The notes beneath the pieces were generated by a model. That model searched no databases, was not told the DNA's origin, and was given only the letters and a program-made list of their open reading frames with translations. A program made the translations under genes and the position numbers. This document shows, one piece after another, positions 1,156 to 56,326 of a DNA stretch of 64,000 bases. The stretch lies in the NCBI RefSeq assembly GCF_039830095.1, contig NZ_CP142435.1, positions 372,001 to 436,000 of the forward strand, written 5' to 3'. The number at the start of each line of letters is the position of its first letter. Within the stretch, counting starts at the first letter, position 1. This DNA comes from Dolosigranulum savutiense (GTDB lineage: Bacteria; Bacillota; Bacilli; Lactobacillales; Carnobacteriaceae_A).

Positions 1156-1501
1156 CTCTTTATTGTATTAACTACATTATATATATAAGGACTTTTATGC
1201 AAGCGGATTCTTGGGTACTGTCATATGCTTATTACTTTCTAACATTTTAATAATGTACAATGTTGTATATAAAAGTCAACTTAATCTTATTAAATTATTT
1301 TTGTACATTTATCTGTATTTTTGGTGTTTTAAGAATCAATATGTATTCGGCTCCTTTTATCAAGGCAGTTAATAGGATGCACGACACTTTTTAGTTAGAT
1401 ATCAAGTACATCTCTAGAGAATCTTTACAGTTACAAATGACTTCTATTATGAACTTAATGTTAAGTTTTTGGAAAAAATATCGTTTTCTTCAAAAAAGGT
1501 A
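1156..1501. other. AT-rich intergenic stretch before spx
   Basis: No convincing ORF. It is very AT-rich and may hold upstream control sites for spx and the minus-strand small membrane gene. The TACAA-TG-TTGTA near-palindrome at about 1257-1268 is the only symmetric element I noticed. Confidence 0.4.
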
Positions 1502-1530
1502 TTGCAATCATTGCGTAAGCGTAATACAAT
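1502..1530 (+). promoter_or_regulatory. spx promoter
   Basis: TTGCAA (1502-1507), 17-nt spacer, TACAAT (1525-1530). Predicted start is near 1537, giving a leader of about 93 nt before spx, with a GAAAGGGA ribosome site. Confidence 0.8.
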
Positions 1531-1629
1531 AGTTATGTAAGGTCAAAGTTAAGCACTAACCATTACTTCTGTGGAAAGGGAGTAACCCTGTAAATTGAGG
1601 ATCTTTTTACATAGAAAGGGACGTTCTAT

Positions 1630-2040
1630 ATGATTAATTTGTACGTATCACCAAGTTGTACATCATGTCGTAAGGCAAAATCTTGGTTGGAAGAACATGA
1701 CTTAGACTATGTTGAAAAAAATATCTATCATGATCCATTGACAAAAGATGAAATTAAGGAAATCCTGATGCTGACAGATGAAGGAACCGGCGAGATTATT
1801 TCATATCGTTCGCAAGCGTACCAAAATCTTGAAGTAGATATTGAGGACTTATCAATGAGTGAACTGCTTGATCTATTCACTGATCAGCCTAGCCTCATTC
1901 GTCGTCCGATTATTATGGATGATCGTCGTCTACAAATTGGTTACAACGAAGAAGAAATTCGTTGTTTCCTACCGCGTGAAGTTCGCGAATTAAAACTCGC
2001 TGAAATCAGACAGCAATTAATTGCTGACGACATCGCCTAA
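1630..2040 (+). CDS. spx: Spx global redox/stress transcription regulator
   Basis: 136 residues, ArsC/Spx family. The redox switch is the CxxC at C10-C13 (SPSCTSCRKA), and the RRPIIMDDRRLQIGYNEEEI block matches Spx rather than arsenate reductase. Spx binds the RNA polymerase alpha C-terminal domain and turns on thiol-stress genes when the CxxC is oxidised; ClpXP degrades it otherwise. The ribosome site GAAAGGGA lies 8 nt before the ATG, with a consensus promoter at 1502-1530 and a terminator just after. The C-terminal extension of about 5 residues versus the 131-residue B. subtilis protein is minor. Lactobacillales often have several Spx paralogues, so this may not be the principal copy. Confidence 0.95.
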   Translation: MINLYVSPSCTSCRKAKSWLEEHDLDYVEKNIYHDPLTKDEIKEILMLTDEGTGEIISYRSQAYQNLEVDIEDLSMSELLDLFTDQPSLIRRPIIMDDRRLQIGYNEEEIRCFLPREVRELKLAEIRQQLIADDIA

Positions 2041-2063
2041 GATTTATGACCTTATTTCAACTT

Positions 2064-2093
2064 AAAAAGCGTGGTTTCTCACCACGCTTTTTT
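2064..2093. terminator. Bidirectional terminator between spx and SGNH hydrolase
   Basis: 9-bp stem (2066-2074 / 2082-2090) with a 7-nt loop. There is a T run on the plus side and an A run on the left, so it can serve both convergent genes. Confidence 0.9.
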
Positions 2094-2106
2094 CTATGCA
2101 ATTTAT

Positions 2107-2730
2107 TTAGTTTCCTAAGTTTTCTAACCACTTTTGGGCAATAAAGCCGTGTCCAGCCAAGGTTGGGTGCACACCATCTTCTTCTGTATAATAAGTCAAT
2201 CCATCACGCATGGCCACTGCATTGATTAACCCATCGAGCGGGATAAAATCTGTCTGATAATCCCGAGCTAACTTACGGATAATATTGATAATTGCATCCA
2301 GCATCGGGCGCCACTGATGACGATCTTTTTTATACGGCACCACATAGGGCTCCATCAGTACAACTCGCGCATCTGTTCGCTGATATAACGTCTTTAGCAA
2401 GTAACGATATTGTTCCTCAAAACGGTCTAAATCTTCTTGCGTTTGGATGTTCCCTTCCCAAATATCATTAATCCCAATCAGAATAGAAATAACATCCGGA
2501 TTCAATTCCAAACAGTCTCGCTCCCAACGATGCACAAGATCATCTAATGTATCTCCGCCAATTCCCCGATTATAAAACTGGAAATTCTTGGTCGGCTGAT
2601 CTGTCAACAACTGAGCAGCCACCAAATGAGGATAGCCTTGTCCTAAAGCGCCTTCATCACTGCGGTTACGTCCAACATCCGTAATACTATCCCCAATAAA
2701 CAACACCACATCATCCGTCTTCAATCTCAT
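2107..2730 (-). CDS. SGNH/GDSL-family hydrolase (esterase/lipase)
   Basis: 207 residues, cytoplasmic (no signal peptide). Block I is FIGDSITD with the nucleophile S15. Block II contains GIGGDTL (G57-58). Block III is GIND (86-89). Block V is D185xxH188 in DGVHPTLAGH. These are the SGNH catalytic and oxyanion residues. The family hydrolyses acyl or acetyl esters of small molecules or sugars; the substrate cannot be read from sequence. Ribosome site AAAGGGG is before the ATG, with a TTGATG-18-TATAAT extended -10 promoter at 2754-2783. Single gene. Confidence 0.9.
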   Translation of the reverse strand: MRLKTDDVVLFIGDSITDVGRNRSDEGALGQGYPHLVAAQLLTDQPTKNFQFYNRGIGGDTLDDLVHRWERDCLELNPDVISILIGINDIWEGNIQTQEDLDRFEEQYRYLLKTLYQRTDARVVLMEPYVVPYKKDRHQWRPMLDAIINIIRKLARDYQTDFIPLDGLINAVAMRDGLTYYTEEDGVHPTLAGHGFIAQKWLENLGN

Positions 2731-2753
2731 CGTGGCACCCCTTTCACCTTCTT

Positions 2754-2783
2754 ATTATATCATGTTCATTAACCGTTCATCAA
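2754..2783 (-). promoter_or_regulatory. Promoter of SGNH hydrolase gene
   Basis: Minus strand: TTGATG (2783-2778), 18-nt spacer, TATAAT (2759-2754) with a TGA extended -10. Two tandem 11-bp near-identical repeats (2764-2774 and 2775-2785) span the spacer and -35, a possible regulator site. Confidence 0.7.
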
Positions 2784-2836
2784 CCGACATTAATTCAAAC
2801 AAACACCTTATCTTTCCAAAAATCTTATCAAAAAAC

Positions 2837-2865
2837 TTAACACATAAAAACAAATCCTTTATAAT
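2837..2865 (+). promoter_or_regulatory. Promoter of micropeptide/HTH unit
   Basis: TTAACA (2837-2842), 17-nt spacer, TATAAT (2860-2865). It would give a leader of about 155 nt, AT-rich, with only a weak 5-bp hairpin near 2885-2898. Confidence 0.75.
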
Positions 2866-3028
2866 GGATATATCTTAAAGAAAGATGAATGCCTTCATTG
2901 TAATAATCAATTTACTAATTATTTTATACTGCCTAACAAATGGTACTAAAAAATAACTCACTAAATATTTTGGCTAACTCTAAAAGGAAGATCATAAACA
3001 AGACATCTAGAATAAAAGGAGAATTCAC

Positions 3029-3103
3029 ATGAGTCCACTGATCATTATTAATATAACTATTATGATCATCAGTCTATACATTATCAATCAGAATAAAAAA
3101 TAA
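3029..3103 (+). CDS. 24-residue hydrophobic membrane micropeptide
   Basis: ATG at 3029 with a strong AAAAGGAGA ribosome site 7 nt upstream. The product is 24 residues: an almost wholly hydrophobic I-rich helix (LIIINITIMIISLYII) ending in polar NQNKK, i.e. one membrane helix with a basic tail. Its stop lies 11 nt before the ATG of the HTH gene, under a good promoter. Such peptides occur as type I toxins, phage-like leaders or membrane regulators. No antisense RNA was identified, so a toxin role is only a guess. The excellent ribosome site argues that it is translated. Confidence 0.55.
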   Translation: MSPLIIINITIMIISLYIINQNKK

Positions 3104-3114
3104 GGATGGCTAAC

Positions 3115-3321
3115 ATGAAAATTATAAATATAGAAGCTATAAAGCAACTACTGAACGACAACTCAATCAGCGCTTACAGTATCGAAAAAGAAACAGGATT
3201 TTCACGACACACCCTCGCTAAACTTAGACGTAATGAAACAGACTTTGACAAACTATCACTAAAATCACTCAAACAACTACAATCATTTATTAATAATCAG
3301 CGTGACTCAGACCACTCTTAA
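3115..3321 (+). CDS. Small XRE-like helix-turn-helix protein
   Basis: 68 residues. ISAYSIEKETGFSRHTLAKLRRNE reads as a Cro/XRE-type helix-turn-helix (recognition helix about residues 26-37), followed by a helical KLSLKSLKQLQSFINN. A second ATG lies at 3106, but it overlaps the AAGGA ribosome site, so 3115 is used. It is cotranscribed with the 24-residue hydrophobic peptide and terminated at 3361-3411. It probably binds DNA; the target may be its own promoter (inference). Small proteins of this type are common in Lactobacillales accessory DNA. Confidence 0.75.
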   Translation: MKIINIEAIKQLLNDNSISAYSIEKETGFSRHTLAKLRRNETDFDKLSLKSLKQLQSFINNQRDSDHS

Positions 3322-3360
3322 TCAAGATTTTGTTTTGAAATACTATTTTTATTCATTAAA

Positions 3361-3411
3361 AAGTTATACTATACTCTTTCAGCATCTATTGGGATAGAGT
3401 ATAGTATTTTT
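3361..3411 (+). terminator. Terminator of micropeptide/HTH unit
   Basis: Perfect 12-bp inverted repeat (3366-3377 / 3396-3407) with an 18-nt loop and a T5 run. Confidence 0.88.
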
Positions 3412-3433
3412 GATTTCATAACACTTTACCCAA

Positions 3434-3467
3434 ACAAAAAACCCCCACCACTTAAGGCAGGGTTTTG
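3434..3467 (-). terminator. Terminator of gloA
   Basis: On the minus strand an AAAACCC / GGGTTTT stem is followed by a T run, 18 nt after the gloA stop. Confidence 0.75.
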
Positions 3468-3484
3468 TCGGCTCGTCGTTTAGA

Positions 3485-3865
3485 TTAGTTTTGGATAACC
3501 TCAACTTTGTAGCCATCAGGATCTTTGATGAAGAAGTAACTTGTACTGTTGTTAGATAAAGCTTTCAGCTCAGTTACTTCATAACCTGTTTCGCTGTACT
3601 CTTTGTGAGTTGCTTCTAGGTCATCAACACCAATTGCGATATGGCCGTAACCATCACCAATTGTGTATGGTTCTTCCTTATCGTAGTTGTATGTCAACTC
3701 AAGTTCATAATCTGAACCTGGCACTTTCAAGTATACCAAGGTAAATTTATCTTCTGGGAAATCTCGTTTACGAGAAATCTCAAAACCAAGTAGATCCTGG
3801 TAAAACTCAAGTGACTTATCCAAATCTTGTACACGATAGCACGTGTGTAAAAACTTAAAACTCAT
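3485..3865 (-). CDS. gloA: Lactoylglutathione lyase (glyoxalase I)
   Basis: 126 residues, single VOC (vicinal oxygen chelate) domain. The four metal ligands of GloA are in register: H7, E56 (DYELELTYN), H75 (YGHIAIGV) and E122 (KVEVIQ). The enzyme isomerises the hemithioacetal of methylglyoxal and a thiol (glutathione in known GloA) to S-lactoylglutathione, detoxifying methylglyoxal. Glutathione reductase at 29.6 kb makes a glutathione substrate plausible. A strong AGGAGGAG ribosome site precedes the ATG. It is monocistronic with its own promoter (3886-3914) and terminator. Confidence 0.95.
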   Translation of the reverse strand: MSFKFLHTCYRVQDLDKSLEFYQDLLGFEISRKRDFPEDKFTLVYLKVPGSDYELELTYNYDKEEPYTIGDGYGHIAIGVDDLEATHKEYSETGYEVTELKALSNNSTSYFFIKDPDGYKVEVIQN

Positions 3866-3885
3866 ACAAATCTCCTCCTACTTAC

Positions 3886-3914
3886 ATTATACAAGTTTCC
3901 TATTTATTTGTCTA
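3886..3914 (-). promoter_or_regulatory. gloA promoter
   Basis: Minus strand: TAGACA (3914-3909), 17-nt spacer, TATAAT (3891-3886), about 20 nt before the start codon. Confidence 0.8.
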
Positions 3915-4009
3915 CAGATGACACTTGACCCAGAAATATACCGGAGTTTCTGATTGCTTAGACCGCTCGGATAACAAGAACGTTCACAGCCTGTTTCCTT
4001 TTTAGTCAT

Positions 4010-4585
4010 CTATTCAAATCTCATTTTTATTAAAAAGGCTAGAGGCACATCATCCAAATCCAGATTTGCTTCTGTTAAATGCTCTACAGCCATTGACGTA
4101 ACATCTGCATCATCCTTTAGATACCTAATGACTCCTAATAAATAACCATCGTCCCACTCAGCAACACCATAGTCAAAAATGGCCGGCTGAACAGTTATGT
4201 CCAACTCATTTAAATCATACGCATGATAAGTTGAATAGCTATCCGTGTCCACCTCAATACTGTCAAGTACATGATCTTCATATGTTAGGTGATTAAGTGC
4301 TAAATGGAGTGGATTATCCTTTTGTGGCTGGTCAGCTGTCATTTCAAATTCCTGAACTACTTCTTTCAGCTGACCGTATTCAACACGCTCAATCCAAAAA
4401 TAAAGAGTCGGTTGCTCTAGATTGGTCTGTTGATAGAGAAATGTTGCTTCTTGACTGGTGCGCATCGTTTCAGCTGATGACTCATTCTCATCTAATACCG
4501 CCACACTATTCTCATTGGCATTGCCTGCCGAACACCCCATCAATATTAGCAACATCAGCAATATTATCCCAAAATATTTTTTCAT
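4010..4585 (-). CDS. Unknown lipoprotein
   Basis: 191 residues. The N-terminus is a Gram-positive lipoprotein signal: K2-K3, a hydrophobic core, and the lipobox L15-M16-G17-C18, so the mature protein is lipid-anchored at C18. It then has a short S/N/E-rich linker and an acidic soluble domain of about 150 residues that I do not recognise. The ribosome site AAGGAGGCG lies 8 nt upstream. It stands alone between gloA and the small RNA, so context gives no role. Confidence 0.8.
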   Translation of the reverse strand: MKKYFGIILLMLLILMGCSAGNANENSVAVLDENESSAETMRTSQEATFLYQQTNLEQPTLYFWIERVEYGQLKEVVQEFEMTADQPQKDNPLHLALNHLTYEDHVLDSIEVDTDSYSTYHAYDLNELDITVQPAIFDYGVAEWDDGYLLGVIRYLKDDADVTSMAVEHLTEANLDLDDVPLAFLIKMRFE

Positions 4586-4905: not shown

Positions 4906-5250
4906 TTATGCTCTAACGCCGAGAGAAATCCTCGCATAGCGCGACATATGACTCGTACTCCATGCCGGTGAAAAAACTAGATCAATATTAACAAATTCAA
5001 CCGGATCGCAATCAAGCAGAGCAAAGCGAACACCATTCATAATCTCATCCGCTAGAGGACATCCCATCGATGTGAGCGTCATAGTTACTTTACAGTCCCC
5101 TTTTTTATTTAAATCAAGTTTGTAAATCAAGCCTAAATTCAACACATCAATACCTAACTCGGGATCAATGACTTGCGTGAGTTGCTGGTGTAAGACCTCT
5201 TGATGCGTTTGAGCTTCATTCAACAATTCAACATTTAAGTTTTCCATCAT
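4906..5250 (-). CDS. SufT/YitW-like Fe-S cluster assembly factor (MIP18/DUF59 domain)
   Basis: 114 residues. The family motifs DPELGIDVLNLGLIY, TSMGCPLADEI (conserved Cys) and SPAWSTSHMS are all present, with no extra domains. Proteins of this family (SufT in Staphylococcus, YitW in Bacillus) help mature Fe-S proteins. S. aureus SufT is linked to lipoate synthesis because LipA carries two [4Fe-4S] clusters. This gene is last in an operon after lipoyl synthase and lipoate ligase, with a 15-nt gap to lplA, which fits that role well. Confidence 0.88.
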   Translation of the reverse strand: MMENLNVELLNEAQTHQEVLHQQLTQVIDPELGIDVLNLGLIYKLDLNKKGDCKVTMTLTSMGCPLADEIMNGVRFALLDCDPVEFVNIDLVFSPAWSTSHMSRYARISLGVRA

Positions 5251-6270: not shown

Positions 6271-7371
6271 CTAAGCCTGCTTTGCTTTAGCGTGTTCGAA
6301 GGCCTCCGCTGCTTTGTATGATGAGCGAACGAGCGGTGCTGCTACGACATATTTGAATCCTTTTTCGCGGGCCATTTCTTCATATTCATTGAACTTCTCC
6401 GGTGTCACGTAGCGTGCCAACTTATGGTGCTCACTAGATGGTTGCAAGTATTGGTTAATCGTCAAAATATCACAACCCGTCGCTAAGATGTCATCCATCA
6501 AGTTAGAAATCTCTTCATCAGACTCACCTAGACCAACCATGAATCCAGTCTTCGTTAAGGTATTCGGTGAAATCTTCTTACTATTACGTAAGACATTTAA
6601 GGACTGTTCGTAATTACATTGTGGCTGAACTTTTCGGTACCATTCTTTTGGCATCTCCATGTTGTGGTTCAAGACATCGGGATCAGCTGCAAGAACATCT
6701 TCCAATGCTTCATAAGAGCCTCGCAAGTCTGAGATCAAGACTTCGATTGTTGTCTCCGGATTGATCTCGCGGATTTGTCGAACGGTCTCCGCCATATGCG
6801 CTGCACCACCATCTTTAAGATCATCTCGTGCGACTTGAGTAACCACAGCATGCTCAAGCTTCATCTTACGAACGGCATCAGCTACTCGAATAGGCTCAAG
6901 TGGATCAAGCTGGCCTGGGCGAGCGGTCCGTTCGATATTACAAAACTTACAGCCACGGGTACATTTTTCTCCCATAATCATAAAGGTTGCGGTGTTATTG
7001 CCGAAACATTCCCCGATATTCGGACAATTTGCTTCCTCACAAACTGTTGTTAATCTGTTCTCTTCTAAAATATTAGAGACGTTTTTAATCGCACTCCCAT
7101 TGTAAGACACGCGCAACCAATCAGGCTTTGACGAACGTGGCCCCACCTCAGCGACAATTGCTCCAACGGGTACATCATCTCCTTCTTCGTAACGATGCTT
7201 CATCATCAAACCATCCATCTCTGCCTCAATAATATTAACGACTTTATCTGTTTCAACTTCGTATAACGGATCGCCTGCTTCAAACACTTCCCCTTCATCA
7301 ACAACCCAAGCTACAAGTTTGCCCCTTTCCATATTAGGAAGAAGCTTTGGCATCTTAATGTGAATAGTCAT
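6271..7371 (-). CDS. lipA: Lipoyl synthase with fused N-terminal lipoyl domain
   Basis: 366 residues from ATG 7371. An in-frame GTG at 7383 is overlapped by the GGAGTG ribosome site and is not used. Residues 2-77 are a lipoyl/biotinyl-carrier domain with the acceptor lysine K43 in VETDKVVNI. Residues 85-366 are a complete lipoyl synthase: auxiliary cluster cysteines C111, C116, C122; radical SAM C137xxxC141xxC144; C-terminal RSSY (349-352). LipA inserts two sulfurs into an octanoyl chain bound to a carrier protein. Here enzyme and a potential carrier are one polypeptide, about 70 residues longer than ordinary LipA. It is first gene of an operon with lplA and a SufT-like factor. Confidence 0.93.
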   Translation of the reverse strand: MTIHIKMPKLLPNMERGKLVAWVVDEGEVFEAGDPLYEVETDKVVNIIEAEMDGLMMKHRYEEGDDVPVGAIVAEVGPRSSKPDWLRVSYNGSAIKNVSNILEENRLTTVCEEANCPNIGECFGNNTATFMIMGEKCTRGCKFCNIERTARPGQLDPLEPIRVADAVRKMKLEHAVVTQVARDDLKDGGAAHMAETVRQIREINPETTIEVLISDLRGSYEALEDVLAADPDVLNHNMEMPKEWYRKVQPQCNYEQSLNVLRNSKKISPNTLTKTGFMVGLGESDEEISNLMDDILATGCDILTINQYLQPSSEHHKLARYVTPEKFNEYEEMAREKGFKYVVAAPLVRSSYKAAEAFEHAKAKQA

Positions 7372-7383
7372 AATTATAATCAC

Positions 7384-7727: not shown

Positions 7728-7822
7728 CAAATCTGAGCAAGCGGTGAATAGACGACTATTCATGCAGCCCGGCTACTAAACGTAGCAGCAGCGTGTGAAG
7801 GCACACCTGTGAGACAGTTAAT
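7728..7822 (+). ncRNA. NiCo (czcD) riboswitch aptamer
   Basis: The leader carries the conserved pieces of the czcD/NiCo motif in order: CTGAGCA, a hairpin arm TGAATAG/CTATTCA followed by TGCAGCC, GGCTAC/GTAGC followed by AGCAGC, a GTGTG/CACAC arm, and TGTGAGACAGTT closing P1 with the initial CTG. This class binds Co2+ and Ni2+ (and possibly Fe2+) cooperatively. An upstream hairpin GCTTC/GAAGC sits at about 7709-7725. The 3' part, including GAGACAG, is also the left arm of the terminator, so metal binding should prevent termination and turn on the ATPase. Identified by eye against the remembered consensus. Confidence 0.85.
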
Positions 7823-7933: not shown

Positions 7934-9832
7934 ATGATGTGGAACTATCTAAAAACAAATCGGGAAGGACAATTTTTAGTCATTGGAATTGTGTTGACTG
8001 TATTAGGATTTACCTTAACAGTATTGGACTTAGCTGGCAGCCGTTGGGTATTCTACGGAGCAATTGGCTTTTTAGGGTTTTATGCTGCGAAAGATGCTGT
8101 GGTCGAAACATTCAAACATAAAGCACCCAATGATGCCTTATTAATGGTACTTTCAGCCTTAGGAGCTACATTGATTCAATATGAATCGGAAGGAGCGGTG
8201 TTGTTGCTAATCTTTGCGGGTGCAGAAGTGTTGGAAGATTATGTGACCGCCAAGGCAACGGACAGTATCTCCGAGCTAATGTCCAGTGTTCCTAATGAAG
8301 CTCATGTAATGCGTAAGAATGGCGATGTTGAGATTGTTCCTACTGATACATTAGAAGTCGGTGACACAGTGGTCGTCCAAAAAGGAGCCCAACTTCCAAT
8401 AGATGGCACAATTGACCGTCAAGCTGTTGTCAATGAAGCAGCACTAACGGGGGAATCGATTCCTGTAGAAAAAGCTAGCGGTGAGATGGTTTACGCTGGT
8501 ACCTTAAATGAGGGAGATGTCTTCTACTTAACCGTTACTCAGACAAGTGATCAAACCATCTTCTCCAATATTATTCACATGGTTGAACAAGCACAACAAC
8601 ACCCCTCCAAAAAAGCTCGCTGGATTGATACATTCGAAGCCTATTATGTAACAGGCGTGTTAATTGCAGTGCCACTATTTATCATTGGCTTATTTTTCCT
8701 GCAAGAACTCAGTTGGCAAGCTGCCTTCTACCGTGGACTCGTCCTCTTAACAGTGGCCAGTCCCTGTGCTTTAGTGGCTTCCATCACTCCTGCCACACTC
8801 AGCGCTATTAGTAACGGTGCTAAGAACGGTATTCTCTTCAAGGGAGGTAAGGCCATGGAACGCTTCGGTGAATTGAAGACACTCTATACTGACAAAACAG
8901 GTACCCTAACGCAAGGTGAATTCAGTGTCACTGATTATGAGTTAGCCGATGACTATCTTCCAACACTGGTCTATATGGAACAGCAATCGAGTCACCCTAT
9001 TGCCCAAGCAATTGTCGCTCACTTCAAATCAGAGAAGATCGAATTACCAACTGAACCAGATCAAATCGAAGAAATTGCAGGAGCCGGCTTAAGAATGGGC
9101 AATATCACAGTCGGCAAACCTGATTTATTTAAAAAATCAACGGGAATTGAAGCAGTTCAAGCTGCTATCGATGGGCCAGAGACTACGATTATTGTAGCTG
9201 AACATGATTGTATTGTTGGTTATGTTAATTTAGCCGATAAAATTCGCGTCAGCTCTCAGCAAGCGGTCCACCATTTCCAAGCAGCCGGAATTGAAGTCGT
9301 CTTACTCACTGGTGACCAACAACGCGTGGCCGAAGCAATCGCAGCTGAGATTGGTATTCCTAAAACCTATGCTGAATTACTTCCAGAAGATAAAATGAAT
9401 TTCATCCAATCCAGCCAGTCGAGCAATAAAGTGGTGGGCATGATCGGTGACGGCATTAACGATGCTCCAGCCTTAGCTCATGCGGATATTGGAATTGCGA
9501 TGGGCAGCGGTTCACAAGCGGCTATGGAGTCCGCAGATATCGTAATTGTCAAAAATGATCTACAAAAATTATTCAATAGTTACCGCTTAAGTCAACGTCT
9601 AGATAAGATTATTAAGCAAAACCTTTTCTTTGCAATTGGTGTGATTATCACACTCATCACACTGAATATTTTAGGCTGGCTCGATTTACCGATGGGCGTT
9701 GTTTTTCATGAAGTATCGACTATTCTCGTTATCTTAAATGGCCTGCGCCTCTTGCGAAACAGTTCTACAGCAGCTATCGAAACTAACACCTCACACCAGC
9801 ATACCGCTGATCATCCCGAGACCGTCATTTAA
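7934..9832 (+). CDS. P1B-type heavy-metal exporting ATPase (SPC motif; Co2+/Ni2+/Fe2+ likely)
   Basis: 632 residues, heavy-metal P-type ATPase without an N-terminal metal-binding domain. The actuator motif is TGES (172-175). The transmembrane metal site is SPC (276-278), where copper and Cd/Zn pumps have CPC; SPC marks the P1B-4 group (CoaT, PfeT/FrvA, PmtA). The phosphorylation site is DKTGT (320-324), and SSHP and GDGINDAPAL follow. The protein exports cytoplasmic divalent metal using ATP. The NiCo riboswitch in its leader supports cobalt/nickel as the signal; iron is an alternative, as for PfeT. Ribosome site AAGGAG, 5 nt before the ATG. No metal-sensor protein gene is adjacent. Confidence 0.93.
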   Translation: MMWNYLKTNREGQFLVIGIVLTVLGFTLTVLDLAGSRWVFYGAIGFLGFYAAKDAVVETFKHKAPNDALLMVLSALGATLIQYESEGAVLLLIFAGAEVLEDYVTAKATDSISELMSSVPNEAHVMRKNGDVEIVPTDTLEVGDTVVVQKGAQLPIDGTIDRQAVVNEAALTGESIPVEKASGEMVYAGTLNEGDVFYLTVTQTSDQTIFSNIIHMVEQAQQHPSKKARWIDTFEAYYVTGVLIAVPLFIIGLFFLQELSWQAAFYRGLVLLTVASPCALVASITPATLSAISNGAKNGILFKGGKAMERFGELKTLYTDKTGTLTQGEFSVTDYELADDYLPTLVYMEQQSSHPIAQAIVAHFKSEKIELPTEPDQIEEIAGAGLRMGNITVGKPDLFKKSTGIEAVQAAIDGPETTIIVAEHDCIVGYVNLADKIRVSSQQAVHHFQAAGIEVVLLTGDQQRVAEAIAAEIGIPKTYAELLPEDKMNFIQSSQSSNKVVGMIGDGINDAPALAHADIGIAMGSGSQAAMESADIVIVKNDLQKLFNSYRLSQRLDKIIKQNLFFAIGVIITLITLNILGWLDLPMGVVFHEVSTILVILNGLRLLRNSSTAAIETNTSHQHTADHPETVI

Positions 9833-56059: not shown

Positions 56060-56103
56060 CTATATTTTCATTATATCTCTTTTATGTTTGAAGACTTATA
56101 ATA

Positions 56104-56326
56104 CATTTCTGTCATTTCTTCCTAGGACTTCACTTTGTTTGGCAAGCTTATCCACATCTATTCGGCCTTCTTTATAAGATTTCTGTTCGTCAGTGCAGGT
56201 GTTGCTTCCAACTTCCTTCAGATGCCACCTCACGATGGACACCCTTGCATTCAGTTAACGATTCCTACTGTAAAGGTGGTTCGCAGTGGCCTTTCACCAC
56301 CCAGTTGTCGTCCATGCTGGGCACAC
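56104..56326 (-). mobile_element. 5' fragment of a group II intron (class C-like)
   Basis: Read on the minus strand from 56326: GTGTGCCCAGCATGG, a domain I hairpin with GGTGAAAGGCCAC, AAGGGTGTCCATCGTGAGGT, GGAAGCAACACC, and a later GAAGTCC. This is the order seen at the 5' end of bacterial group II introns. It begins 5 nt after the U-tract of an intrinsic terminator, the target preferred by class C introns. It ends near 56104; no intron ORF and no domain V/VI are found, so it is a dead fragment of about 220 nt. Confidence 0.72.

Follow-up and report, generated by a model that had tools for sequence, protein, structure and literature searches.

On the minus strand of the window (the whole 64,000-nucleotide stretch of the Dolosigranulum savutiense genome that was analysed), a single gene encodes a lipoyl domain joined to a lipoyl synthase, LipA. 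An earlier note had singled out this gene without giving its strand, and its coordinates proved exact (Table 1). The frame runs unbroken from an ATG at 7371 to a stop at 6271. A GGAG read from the sequence lies at 7386-7383, 11 nt 5' of the ATG; an alternative GTG start at 7383 would overlap this GGAG and is unlikely. On the same strand, lplA follows after 3 bp, and a SufT/MIP18-like gene for Fe-S assembly comes 15 bp after lplA and is probably co-transcribed with the other two. On the other side, a gene for a P-type metal ATPase is divergent from the fused gene and carries a NiCo (AnGGAG) riboswitch aptamer at its 5' side. A match to a group II intron RNA lies elsewhere in the window.

Table 1. 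Features of the window, in positions of the 64,000-nucleotide stretch
Feature	Position	Strand	Evidence
SufT/MIP18-like Fe-S assembly gene	4906-5250	-	PF01883; TIGR02945 below cut-off
lplA, dedicated ligase of the unit, 333 aa	5266-6267	-	TIGR00545 370 bits (cut-off 280); groups with the LplAs of other units (100/98)
Fused lipoyl-domain/LipA gene, 366 aa	6271-7371	-	Open frame; Pfam and NCBIfam domain matches; AlphaFold pLDDT 94, pTM 0.87
LipA (radical SAM lipoyl synthase) part, residues 83-366	6274-7125	-	TIGR00510 above cut-off; conserved cluster ligands; fold match to LIAS and MtLipA, Z 43-44
Seam/linker GPRSS, residues 78-82	7126-7140	-	Aligned at DNA level with Vescimonas, G486 and G364; one TAA in the translated Vescimonas pair
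Lipoyl (carrier) domain, residues 1-77	7141-7371	-	PF00364, residues 4-75; fold match to 3crk, Z 14.7; 52% identity to the G486 and Vescimonas carriers
K43 codon, predicted lipoyl-lysine in VETDKVV	7243-7245	-	Hairpin position in the model; lysine kept in 15/15 aligned carriers
NiCo (AnGGAG) riboswitch aptamer	7730-7817	+	72.2 bits
P-type metal ATPase gene	7934-9832	+	
Group II intron RNA match	56087-56239	-	RF02001, 75.5 bits

The claim that a complete lipoyl domain, with K43 in VETDKVV, precedes a complete LipA with all its cysteine motifs was borne out by Pfam, by NCBIfam and by alignment. The Biotin_lipoyl match (PF00364; E 6e-13) covers profile positions 2-72 of 73, and Radical_SAM is matched over residues 131-295 (E 8e-19). 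TIGR00510, the lipA family, scores 356.8 bits against a cut-off of 310.25, from residue 80 to 364 and over profile positions 15-300 of 302. In an alignment of 67 rows, nearly invariant columns hold C111, C116 and C122 (CX4CX5C, the auxiliary cluster), C137, C141 and C144 (CX3CX2C, the radical-SAM motif) and R349-S350-S351 of the RSSY motif. Confidence is high along the whole AlphaFold2 model. Residues 1-78 match the lipoyl domain 3crk with an rmsd of 1.1 over 77 residues, and K43 lies in the hairpin that links strands 35-41 and 44-49. The LipA part of the model resembles human LIAS (9c19; Z 44.4, rmsd 1.3 over 297 residues) and the LipA of M. tuberculosis (5exk; Z 43.4). Two other assignments were considered: the LipS2 profile gives 43.9 bits against a cut-off of 270, and NF053790, the LplA-LipA fusion family, which needs more than 800 bits, gives 383, the LipA half alone being matched and LplA being a separate open frame. 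The fused gene is not among the four matches of the genome to PF01597, the GcvH H-protein profile; its lipoyl domain may still act as a GcvH-like carrier.

Where does such a protein come from? LipA is scarce in the order to which D. savutiense belongs, being found in 24 of 395 sampled genomes, this one included. In 12 of the 24, a free lipoyl-domain gene of about 80 codons is followed by lipA and then by lplA, with ends that overlap or nearly touch. These genomes belong to families f1, f3, f5 and f8 and to six genera, all different from that of the window, and in seven of them carrier and lipA share a reading frame with one stop between. We call this arrangement the carrier-LipA-LplA unit, a name coined here for a lipoyl domain without E2 parts directly before LipA, with lplA directly after, and the genes of the window have this arrangement too. 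It also occurs outside the order, in the clostridial genome G486 (locus L146) and on a plasmid of Vescimonas fastidiosa (NZ_AP023417.1). In all 14 relatives the carrier is a separate protein without an E2 domain, its gene adjoins lipA and lplA, and the lysine is present throughout (15 of 15 sequences with that of the window). Eight of the unit loci were viewed more widely, and none showed a dehydrogenase gene beside the unit. Free lipoyl domains of another type (TSKAV) lie downstream of two clostridial lipA genes, L188 and L235, and were left out. These TSKAVF-type domains (L188 of G411, 697-930; L235 of G617, 3008-3250), directly downstream of lipA, possibly represent another carrier arrangement.

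The remaining 11 LipA genomes of the order, all from family f7, have no free lipoyl domain adjoining LipA. Directly upstream of lipA, ten of them carry a shorter open frame of the LplA family (273-280 aa), and the eleventh (L140) has a similar one. From their position, size and sequence these frames appear LipM-like, and the one that was tested lacks the ligase C-terminal domain.

Comparison with the free-carrier relatives indicates how the join arose. When the carrier and LipA of Vescimonas are read in one frame, with a single TAA between them, their identity to residues 1-352 of the fused protein is 54.6%. Alignment at the DNA level with Vescimonas, G486 and G364 places the seam where the relatives have a stop, a spacer and a LipA start codon. 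All three are missing in the window, which has the linker GPRSS instead, so that a single sequencing error is excluded as the cause. The join of lipoyl domain and LipA is genuine, and the sequences indicate that it arose from a pre-existing carrier/lipA gene pair by loss of the stop, the spacer and the start codon.

The fusion itself is rare. A domain search of the kind that the earlier note had proposed was run on 1,380 genomes, a count that includes repeats, and found no lipoyl-LipA fusion other than that of the window. It covered samples of 395 genomes from the order, 27 from the family, 398 from the phylum and 398 from the class (strong hits only), together with 13, 21 and 46 genomes from the family, order and class of G486. 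A search of genome contigs for related loci returned generic LipA only among the 80 loci listed. Of the large LipA open frames sampled in the phylum, some fuse LplA or a LipB-type domain to LipA, and others seem to be frames extended too far through GC-rich DNA; a lipoyl domain is present in none. Among the fusions, L177 (G519, 1326-4306) encodes an 836-aa protein made of LplA, its C-terminal domain, a DUF116 stretch and LipA, and is followed by a gcvH-like gene, while L176 (G735, 1125-2702) and L185 (G572, 1128-2699) encode proteins of about 525 aa in which a LipB-type transferase domain is joined to LipA. A literature search, with many subscription papers outside its reach, found no paper on a lipoyl-domain-LipA fusion or on a free-carrier unit. 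The domains and their chemistry are known; the joining seems new and the carrier arrangement seems undescribed.

Phylogeny adds to this picture. The LplAs of the units (n=13), that of the window included, form one clade (100/98) apart from the housekeeping LplAs of the same genomes. The lipoyl domain of the window pairs with that of G486 (94/89). A midpoint-rooted tree of the joined carrier, LipA and LplA sequences sets the window beside G486 and Vescimonas (100/100), separate from the 12 genomes of the order (100/100). From this placement, the unit of the window would have been acquired from a clostridial source and not inherited together with that of the family member G007; we infer such a gain from trees with long branches, which suggest it. 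A first LipA tree had hinted that the pairing of carrier and LipA arose twice, which was not upheld (AU p 0.44). In a smaller and more careful tree the LipAs of the window and G486 are no longer sisters, and the LipA tree by itself neither supports nor rejects a single origin at that p value.

How might the fused protein work? LipA acts on an octanoyl chain that is bound to a protein. A functional parallel is the LipM-LipA-LipL pathway of S. aureus and B. subtilis, where an octanoylated carrier protein is converted by LipA before transfer to E2. In S. aureus, octanoyl-GcvH is made by LipM from ACP or by LplA1 from free octanoate and is then the substrate of LipA, after which LipL hands the lipoate on to E2 (PMC5049849). 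The carrier in this pathway differs from that of the window in being GcvH, which is encoded apart and loaded from ACP by LipM, and no LipM-like gene was recognised in the D. savutiense genome.

PF21948 has four matches in the D. savutiense genome, three LplAs and one LipL-like protein. This genome and the unit genomes of the order alike encode paralogues of LplA together with a single shorter protein that bears the LipL-type cysteine motif (SYCPG), and the five f7 LipA genomes that were checked have the LipM-like frame directly upstream of lipA in addition. No LipM-like protein was recognised in the window genome or the unit genomes, as judged by size and motif and not by a curated LipM model. 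G486 has two LplAs and neither a LipL-like nor any other shorter protein; the extra LplA of the Vescimonas unit is present in G486 too. Possible clients in D. savutiense are a PDH operon, a BCKDH-type operon (both named from a reading of their open frames), a third E2-like protein, and GcvH, which is encoded with GcvT and GcvP and is accompanied by two further GcvH-like proteins. The E2-like protein (508 aa; genome ~1127506-1129032, L299:7506-9032) has one lipoyl domain and an acyltransferase domain; its gene stands directly after selB/selA-like genes and adjoins an alpha/beta hydrolase, with no E1 or E3 seen nearby. Elsewhere in the genome (~677000-680100, L304:3027-6086), open frames read as GcvH-like, macrodomain-like, sirtuin-like and LplA lie together, and this cluster resembles the SirTM operon of PMC4518038.

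On these grounds, the fused protein is probably the joined form of a conserved three-gene unit for lipoate assembly (carrier, LipA and a dedicated LplA) from which lipoate is relayed to other proteins. K43 would first be charged by LplA, either with free octanoate or with lipoate that the cell has scavenged. Two sulfurs would then be put into the octanoyl chain on this lysine by the radical-SAM part, either of the same polypeptide or of one next to it, at the cost of its auxiliary cluster. Delivery of the lipoyl group to GcvH and the E2 subunits would come last; the simplest agent for it would be the LipL-type amidotransferase, whose gene lies elsewhere in the genome, though another transferase might serve. 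The carrier would thus fill the place that LipM-made octanoyl-GcvH has in B. subtilis and S. aureus. Given that LplA paralogues and a LipL-type protein are present and no LipM-like protein was recognised, a route through LplA, carrier, LipA and LipL would be the simplest scheme.

What the sequences show is the architecture, descent from a gene pair, a clade of its own for the LplA of the unit, the retained lysine, and that no LipM-like gene was recognised; every catalytic step, the source of octanoate, the relay and the choice between cis and trans are inferred. Loading of K43 by the adjacent LplA is plausible by analogy with LplA1 of S. aureus, which accepts octanoate and yields an octanoyl-GcvH that LipA then processes (PMC5049849). 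The linker has only about five residues. The hairpin that bears the lysine is, in lipoyl domains, remote from the termini. For both reasons, reach in cis is uncertain, and sulfur may be inserted between molecules rather than within one. In G486, where no LipL-like protein is present, the relay would need something else. Two further points count against the proposed scheme: GcvH is present and could itself be the substrate of LipA, and the fusion is known from one genome only. A more specific proposal goes further: a protein with a single lipoyl domain, charged by its own LplA, would be the normal site of sulfur insertion and the lipoyl donor in place of octanoyl-GcvH, and the fused form would modify itself in cis. 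We regard this as possible and hold it tentatively. Of the earlier claims, that of a lipoyl domain serving as the carrier gains from comparison, because 14 relatives encode the domain next to lipA and lplA, and none of the 15 sequences has lost its lysine. To speak of a self-contained enzyme was an overstatement, as LplA and a transferase would still be needed, and the replacement of GcvH is doubtful in the form proposed, with GcvH, GcvT, GcvP and a LipL-like protein all encoded in the genome.

Could the lipoyl domain serve some other end? It might be a docking or redox module: LipA would act on GcvH or E2 as usual, and the domain would position it on E2/E3 or pass electrons by way of dihydrolipoamide dehydrogenase. 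Lipoyl domains are mobile modules in other complexes, and GcvH and the three E2-like proteins of the genome could be used by LipA directly. We nevertheless think this unlikely, because the 14 relatives encode the domain as a free protein, beside lipA and a dedicated lplA, and all have kept its lysine, because a dedicated clade of LplAs is hard to explain if acylation of the domain is unneeded, and because no E1 or E3 gene lies beside the unit in the eight loci viewed more widely.

Or is the domain itself the client, a lipoylated protein with a function of its own, for example in peroxide defence or in some enzyme complex, which LipA and LplA mature and whose lipoate is never passed on? Precedents exist in the GcvH-L of SirTM operons and in LbpA, which are reportedly lipoylated, have their own ligases and have their own functions (PMC4518038, PMC6067878), and in G486 the pair of LplAs without a LipL-like protein would agree with it. 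This seems quite improbable all the same. The eight wider loci have no conserved partner enzyme beside the unit; 11 of the 12 unit genomes and that of the window have no other recognised source of octanoyl-protein and yet carry LipA; the D. savutiense genome holds several E2 and GcvH clients; and a domain that is fused to the synthase is more likely to take part in synthesis.

That carrier and LipA are in truth two proteins, joined by an artefact of assembly or annotation, is very improbable even with no other genome of genus g1 among the relatives searched: the genome is one contig of 1.98 Mb (98.6% complete), the assembled frame has neither the stop nor the frameshift between the domains that the earlier note had named as its refutation, and the losses at the seam, with GPRSS in frame instead, could not result from one base error.

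The SufT-like gene was also weighed as a further member of the carrier-LipA-LplA unit and rejected, being absent beside the unit in the eight wider loci of relatives. As a neighbour it fits, since SufT of S. aureus is reportedly required when the demand for lipoic acid is high (Mashruwala 2016).

The proposed unit can be set beside several other arrangements. Closest is plasmid pMM35_02 of Vescimonas fastidiosa, a human gut bacterium, where lplA, a biotin/lipoyl-containing protein (WP_212822080), lipA (WP_212822082) and lplA are annotated in this order (L313, 6994-10071). Its carrier, LipA and LplA follow each other as in the window, with identities of 52%, 57% and 50% to the three parts and with carrier and lipA in one frame, but they are unfused, an extra LplA gene precedes them and the whole is plasmid-borne. 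The free-carrier units of the same order (e.g., L013, L121 and L012) share the tight order of lipoyl domain, lipA and lplA, and their LplAs fall in the clade of the window; they differ in being unfused and more distant (31-38% identity to the window for the carrier, 45-50% for LipA). The LplA-LipA (NF053790) and LipB-type-LipA fusions (L177, L176 and L185) likewise join LipA to another part of lipoate assembly, with the difference that the partner is the acyl-loading enzyme, whereas in the window it is the acceptor domain. Finally, LbpA of sulfur oxidisers is a lipoyl carrier encoded with a dedicated ligase, sLpl(AB), and a synthase, LipS1/LipS2 (PMC10332631); unlike the carrier of the window, it is GcvH-like and works in sulfur oxidation, and its synthase is not LipA.

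These genes touch on the question of which carrier LipA uses in each lineage. One that is encoded with LipA or fused to it would be a clean, purpose-made case. Bacteria with LipM and LipA but no LipL have been noted, for which broader specificity or unknown transferases were suggested (PMC10332631). A fusion of carrier and LipA would also permit LipA assays on a single polypeptide with its substrate built in.

For the order, where most of the genomes sampled are without LipA, the scattered units suggest that some genomes may have gained lipoate synthesis as a compact whole, plausibly spread by transfer, one copy being on a plasmid. In D. savutiense, the fusion suggests a route to lipoic acid that has been little described.
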